Below are positions 59,287 to 60,868 of a stretch of 64,000 nucleotides of DNA, piece after piece. Both the position numbers and the translations under genes were made by a program. This DNA comes from Halorussus limi. GTDB taxonomy: Archaea; Halobacteriota; Halobacteria; Halobacteriales; Haladaptataceae. Positions within the stretch are counted from its first letter, which is position 1, and every line of letters starts with the position of its first letter. A model generated the notes under the pieces. It did not search any database. It saw nothing but the letters and a program-made list of their open reading frames with translations, and had not been told where the DNA came from. The stretch lies in the NCBI RefSeq assembly GCF_023238205.1, contig NZ_CP096659.1, positions 3,303,626 to 3,367,625 on the forward strand, written 5' to 3'.

Positions 59287-60339
59287 TCAGTCCGAGTAGG
59301 CGACCCCGCCCGTTCCCTGTGCCTCGGAGAACAGGCGGCCTCTCGTCGCCAGCGCGACGCGGACGAGCGCCAGCATCACGGGAACCTCGATGAGCGGACC
59401 GACGACCGTGGCGAGCGCGACGTTACTCCCGATGCCGAACACCGCGACCGCGACCGCGATGGCCAACTCGAAGTTGTTCGACGAGGCGGTGAACGCGACG
59501 CTGATGCTCCCGGTGTAACTGAAGCCGAGCGCGGCGGACGCGCCGTAGGCGAGCGCCCACATCCCCGCGAAGAAGACGAGCAGCGGGACCGCGATGAGCG
59601 CTATCTGCTCGGGGTTCTCGACGATGTACTCGCCCTTGAGCGCGAACATCACGACGACGGTGAACAGCAGGCCGAGCAGACCCAGCGGGCTGATTCGCGG
59701 GACGATTCGGTCGTAGTAGGCCGCCTTGCCCACGGTTCGGAACGCGACCGTCTGGGTCAGGTAGCCGAGCAACAGCGGCAGGCCGAGGAAGACCAGCACC
59801 GTCTGGGCGATGAGACCGATGGAAACGTCCACCGAGGTCCCCCGAAGCACGGTCAGGAACACGAAGGCGTAGGGGACGAACAGCACGATTTGCAGCAGGC
59901 TGTTGACGCCGACGCAGACCGCGCACATCTCCTGATTTCCGGCCGCGAGTTCGTTCCAGACCAACACCATGGCGATGCACGGCGCGATGCCGACGATGAT
60001 GAGTCCGGTGACGAACTCGGGGTGTCCGCCGAGGAAGAGGACTGCGAAACCGTACATCACGAACGGCGCGACGAGTCAGTTGAACGCGAGCGTCAACCCG
60101 ATCTCCTTCCGGGCGGTCCGAGTGACCTTCGGGATGCGCCCGTAGTCAATTTCGGCCATGATGGGGTAAATTATCACGAACAGTCCGATCGCGATGGGGA
60201 GGCTGGTGCCGTTGAACGTGACCGCGTTCAGCAGGTCGGCGACGCCGGGCACCGCGTAGCCCAGACCCACGCCGAGGGCCATCGCGAGTCCGATCCAGAC
60301 CGTGAGATACCGGTCCAGTACGCCGATGTCGTCGCTCAC
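59287..60339 (-). pseudogene. acr3: ACR3-type arsenite efflux transporter interrupted by an in-frame TGA
   Basis: 350 codon positions from GTG 60339. About ten helices and the family's conserved Cys in GIAPCIAMVLVWNELAAGN. At codon 88 (60076-60078) the stop TGA stands where family members have the Trp of FNW (LAFN-stop-LVAPFVMYGF); downstream the frame continues undisturbed to 59287. Coupled to arsR (GTGA overlap). Either a nonsense mutation, a sequencing error, or a read-through case. Confidence 0.85.
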
Positions 60340-60728
60340 GCGTCGCCCACCTCCCGGTCCGCGGCCGCGAGCAGTTCCGCGGCGAGTTCGGTTGCGTCGT
60401 AGTAGCGCCAGTTGCCGTCCTTCCGACGGCGGGCGAGTCCGGCGTCCACGAGGTCGGCGAGCGCGTGACTGACCGCGCTCTCGCTCACGTCCACCAGCGG
60501 TTCGAGTTCGCAGACACAGAGGTCGTCGTCCGCGGCGACGAGGAGTCGCGCGAGTCGGTATCGCGTCTCGTCGCCGAGCACCGCGAACACCGGTCGGGCC
60601 GAGTCGTCCGCGAGGGCGCTGTCGGCGAGGCCGTCCAGTTCCGAGAGCCGACGGTCCAAGTCGGCGTCCCGACACTCGCCGAGTTCGTCGGTGACGAGTC
60701 GCCGGAGTCGGTCGGTCGTGTCTGCCAT
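60336..60728 (-). CDS. arsR: ArsR-type repressor
   Basis: 130 residues. Winged helix with the metalloid site DDLCVCELEPLVDVSESAVSHALADL (C71, C73); a third Cys is at C19, so the As(III) site may not be the classic C-x-C-x-x-C. It should release its operator upon arsenite binding. It overlaps the acr3 start. Confidence 0.93.
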   Translation of the reverse strand: MADTTDRLRRLVTDELGECRDADLDRRLSELDGLADSALADDSARPVFAVLGDETRYRLARLLVAADDDLCVCELEPLVDVSESAVSHALADLVDAGLARRRKDGNWRYYDATELAAELLAAADREVGDA

Positions 60729-60766
60729 GACGGGTGATTGAGCGAAGATTCAGATAGGGCTTCCGG

Positions 60767-60784
60767 TCTGAACCCGCGTTCAGA
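60767..60784. promoter_or_regulatory. Candidate ArsR operator
   Basis: TCTGAACCCGCGTTCAGA: a perfect 7-bp inverted repeat with 4-base spacer, 39-56 bases before the arsR start. A single half site TTCAGA follows at 60749-60754, near where the TATA box should be. Confidence 0.6.
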
Positions 60785-60868
60785 TGGCCGTCGCTCGGCC
60801 GACCGGTAGAGCGACAGGGCGCGTCCCGAGTCGCAGAAAAAGTTCGTCGGGGTCGTCGGACCGACCGC

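Follow-up and report, generated by a model that had tools for sequence, protein, structure and literature searches.

A probable young nonsense pseudogene of the arsenite exporter gene acr3 in the chromosomal arsR-acr3 operon of Halorussus limi

Genes of the haloarchaeal chromosomal clade of ACR3 transporters (TIGR00832) lie behind arsR in the four Halorussus genomes compared, and the gene described here occupies the same position. The acr3 gene of Halorussus limi contains an in-frame UGA flanked on either side by potentially coding sequence, and in this respect it also resembles genes in which UGA is decoded by selenocysteine insertion or by a suppressor tRNA. Stop-codon read-through in archaea is unequivocally known for selenocysteine and pyrrolysine only (PMC8037382; PMC8211752). 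Our analysis of a 64,000-nucleotide stretch of this genome (the window) suggests a different reading, to which we assign a probability of roughly 0.84, namely that the chromosomal acr3 of the arsR-acr3 operon is a young nonsense pseudogene.

The acr3 frame and its premature stop

Judging from the full-length match of an orthologue to the TIGR00832 acr3 family (389 bits over residues 6-329; cut-off 282.8), together with a conserved cysteine, the gene is by descent an ACR3 arsenite exporter; the orthologue additionally matches the Pfam family SBF. The operon comprises the following features.

59287..60339, minus strand: acr3, probable pseudogene of an ACR3-family arsenite exporter; 350 codons plus stop, with a GTG start, a TGA end and one internal TGA in the translation
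60076..60078, minus strand: premature TGA at acr3 codon 88, replacing an invariant Trp
60079..60339, minus strand: 87-codon remnant 5' of the stop, covering roughly the initial quarter of the protein
59287..60060, minus strand: open frame 3' of the stop, 257 codons from the GTG at 60060, with an ATG at 60057
60336..60728, minus strand: arsR, intact ArsR/SmtB metalloregulator gene, with a 4-nt overlap between its stop and the acr3 start
60729..60792, minus strand: arsR upstream region with the repeat ATCTGAA/TTCA, putative operator/promoter proposed from an alignment with four congeners

The original prediction had described a frame that is open from 60339 to 59287 except for one TGA, and translation bore this out: the minus-strand frame begins with the GTG at 60339, its terminal TGA ends at 59287, and the TGA at 60078-60076 is the sole internal stop, with neither indels nor a second internal stop in the gene. 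The uninterrupted full-length coding sequence expected of a functional ACR3 exporter is thus broken at codon 88. A tryptophan had been predicted at this position in related ACR3 proteins, and indeed all 110 homologues aligned there, which range from Halorussus orthologues through other haloarchaea to Chloroflexota and Firmicutes, have TGG as this codon, and none has TGA. Comparison with acr3 of close relatives, which had been named as a check, gave the same picture, since all seven of the closest orthologues carry TGG and none shares the TGA. The orthologues of four Halorussus congeners are 93-94% identical (94% in two of them), full length, and stop-free, and farther orthologues are 78-84% identical. 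The TGA at codon 88 is therefore private to this lineage and derives from the ancestral TGG by a single G-to-A change, the one substitution that had been proposed. The peptide patterns used to gather the homologues include none of residues 56, 88, and 98, so the way the search was done does not account for the conservation at these residues.

Other predicted marks of an otherwise well-preserved operon were also recovered. The conserved cysteine (C121) is present in the window copy and invariant in 111 of 111 sequences, arsR retains CVCEL, and the upstream repeat ATCTGAA...TTCA...TATCTGAAT...TCAATC, the putative operator, is conserved in four relatives. A search by sequence for a solved ACR3 structure on which W88 could be placed returned no PDB relative. 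Within the family, residues 135-147 (window 59899-59937) read NQEMCAVCVGVNS, with a CxxC, in the chromosomal haloarchaeal clade, and STEYVTGLVAFNS, without the CxxC, in the plasmid-type copies. The homologue in an Anaerolineales MAG contains one in-frame TAA at position 291, a Glu that is invariant elsewhere, and is probably a pseudogene or a MAG error.

Changes at invariant residues and the age of the probable loss

The expectation that the rest of acr3 would be undamaged failed, as two further residues are altered that are altered in no other homologue.

60172..60174, minus strand: codon 56, ATA (M56I), residue invariant in homologues
60046..60048, minus strand: codon 98, TTC (L98F), residue invariant in homologues

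Both M56 and L98 are invariant across the 110 homologues and changed in the window copy only. In a leave-one-out comparison over 110 sequences, the window acr3 differs at 3 of the 71 positions that are invariant in the rest; 96 of the 110 show no deviation, 12 show one, and one divergent MAG shows five, with zero deviations in all close relatives, including all 15 haloarchaeal relatives listed. Three deviations at invariant sites are better accounted for by a genuine loss of constraint than by one miscalled base. Where the four closest orthologues agree, the changes private to the window copy at the protein level are V51I, M56I, W88stop, L98F, F101L, E277G, D334G, P338S, and E345G, and the private substitutions at such sites amount to 14 synonymous and 8 missense. 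If the gene had stayed as constrained as in the other lineages, 5.0 missense changes would be expected, and full neutrality would give 54.5; the observed 8 indicate that the loss is recent, and acr3 has been free of constraint for at most about 20% of its branch (one-sided 95%). The missense excess by itself is not significant (P = 0.13), and it is M56I and L98F that provide signs of relaxed constraint beyond the stop.

The main rival to the pseudogene reading is a clustered assembly or sequencing error, according to which the true base is G and acr3 is intact, possibly with neighbouring miscalls. The stop needs just one transition, the rest of the frame is open, and the overall dN/dS of the gene is near normal, all of which would fit such an error. 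In addition, six consecutive private substitutions at acr3 nucleotides 151-297 (window 60043-60189) are all C:G to T:A, on both strands, a run that could be either a mutational patch or a local patch of error. A single miscall, however, leaves M56I and L98F unexplained, accounting for only one of the three changes at invariant sites. Moreover, the assembly consists of five contigs with 99.99% completeness, and when 304 kb of the chromosome was surveyed against 320 kb from the closest genome, which paired 127 genes with orthologues over about 37,900 residues, acr3 was the only gene with a stop inside well-conserved sequence, and no other well-supported stop or frameshift was encountered. With acr3 as the lone break among 127 genes, such errors are rare in this assembly, and we consider this explanation unlikely. 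Other apparent stops in the surveyed region were rejected: they come from 5' ends extended too far, from frames on the antisense strand, or from short effects at the ends of the relative's open reading frames.

Translation past the TGA

The position of the stop, exactly on an invariant Trp codon and followed by a largely preserved frame, is what lends some appeal to decoding of the TGA as tryptophan or selenocysteine, by which full-length ACR3 would be made. The UGA is, however, conserved in no homologue, and both arsR and acr3 normally end in TGA, using it as their own terminal stop. No tRNA with a UCA anticodon occurs among the tRNA genes read in the genome, including those of a 15-gene array on contig C4, although some weakly scoring or intron-bearing tRNAs may have escaped this reading; the tRNA-Trp gene has an intron and the anticodon CCA. 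The best candidates for tRNA-Sec (38.2 bits; cut-off 47) and SelD (84.7 bits; cut-off 125) fall below their thresholds, and neither a SECIS element nor any other Rfam family matches at the acr3 locus, so that all three hallmarks of selenoprotein synthesis are missing from these searches. Folding downstream of the stop yielded no stimulatory RNA structure better than shuffled sequences (z = -0.32 and +1.19). With neither a UGA-reading tRNA nor a conserved context, decoding of the TGA as Trp or selenocysteine is exceedingly improbable, and we give almost no credence to the idea that a real TGA is translated, whether as Trp or as some other residue, often enough to be useful and to yield some full-length ACR3.

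The tRNA array itself spans C4:132597-137145 on this 169-kb secondary contig and comprises two Gln (one with an intron), Asp, Pro, three Ser, two Leu, Tyr, two Glu, Met, Arg, and Gly genes; it looks like a virus- or plasmid-borne cluster. Single tRNA genes are present on contig C5.

Re-initiation at the GTG at 60060 or the ATG at 60057 could in principle give rise to pieces of 87 and about 257 residues that together form a working pump. These start codons lie 15 and 18 nt past the stop, the 257 codons that follow are open, and this downstream frame alone still matches SBF; the 87-codon remnant alone has no Pfam match. In Haloferax volcanii, the coupling of termination to reinitiation is almost abolished at a distance of about 20 nt (PMC10666635), and this distance dependence disfavours a two-piece exporter. 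The two start codons are not gained but ancestral, representing the ordinary residues V94 and M95 (V-M or L-M in relatives), and no ACR3 split at codon 88 was seen among the relatives compared (110 homologues aligned). We regard a pump assembled from two pieces as very improbable.

Redundant acr3 copies and comparison with known systems

Two more acr3 genes, both stop-free and both passing the acr3 cut-off, are located at C5:16335-17357 and C4:7697-8719, on contigs (150 kb and 169 kb, respectively) that are presumably plasmids, given their size. These copies are 49% identical to the window acr3. The C5 copy is accompanied by arsR and an arsC-like gene, and the C4 copy by arsD, arsA (ArsA_halo, 1161 bits), and two arsC-like genes. 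With these copies intact, the chromosomal acr3 is probably dispensable. One relative genome (G004) is likewise equipped with backup copies of this kind, but its chromosomal acr3 is intact; redundancy is therefore permissive but not sufficient, and does not explain the loss. The possibility that the allele is shared with plasmids was rejected, as the relatives found there are only 76-78% identical.

Of the three readings that the original prediction had offered, a very recent pseudogene is the one that stood, given the lineage-specific TGA, the two additional changes at invariant residues, and the intact acr3 copies elsewhere; a lone sequencing error proved unlikely, and a read-through site gained no support. 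In the pseudogene reading, the TGG-to-TGA transition at codon 88 would cut the product short at 87 residues, leaving most of the transmembrane protein unmade, and hence the locus is predicted from its sequence to yield no functional arsenite exporter. Selection on acr3 probably relaxed at about the same time, as M56I and L98F indicate, and the loss was probably tolerated because of the two intact genes on C4 and C5. As arsR and its upstream region are intact, ArsR-controlled transcription of the locus may persist and simply give a dead product.

The locus would exemplify early-stage gene loss, in which a chromosomal resistance gene decays while other intact copies persist. The result would correct an annotation and cautions against presuming arsenite export from the chromosomal acr3 locus. 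Its significance beyond annotation is small, although a full-length product, if shown, would bear on archaeal recoding.

Compared with the haloarchaeal chromosomal clade of ACR3 transporters, the window copy differs by the TGA at codon 88, M56I, and L98F, and is very probably non-functional. It departs from selenocysteine and suppressor-tRNA decoding in that the tRNA, enzymes, and cis elements required there were not found here and the UGA is not conserved. With recent nonsense pseudogenes of prokaryotes that have redundant copies, it shares a nonsense change confined to one lineage, a small number of further changes, paralogues elsewhere that are intact, and an intact regulator, differing in gene identity alone; we take the window acr3 to be an ordinary young pseudogene.
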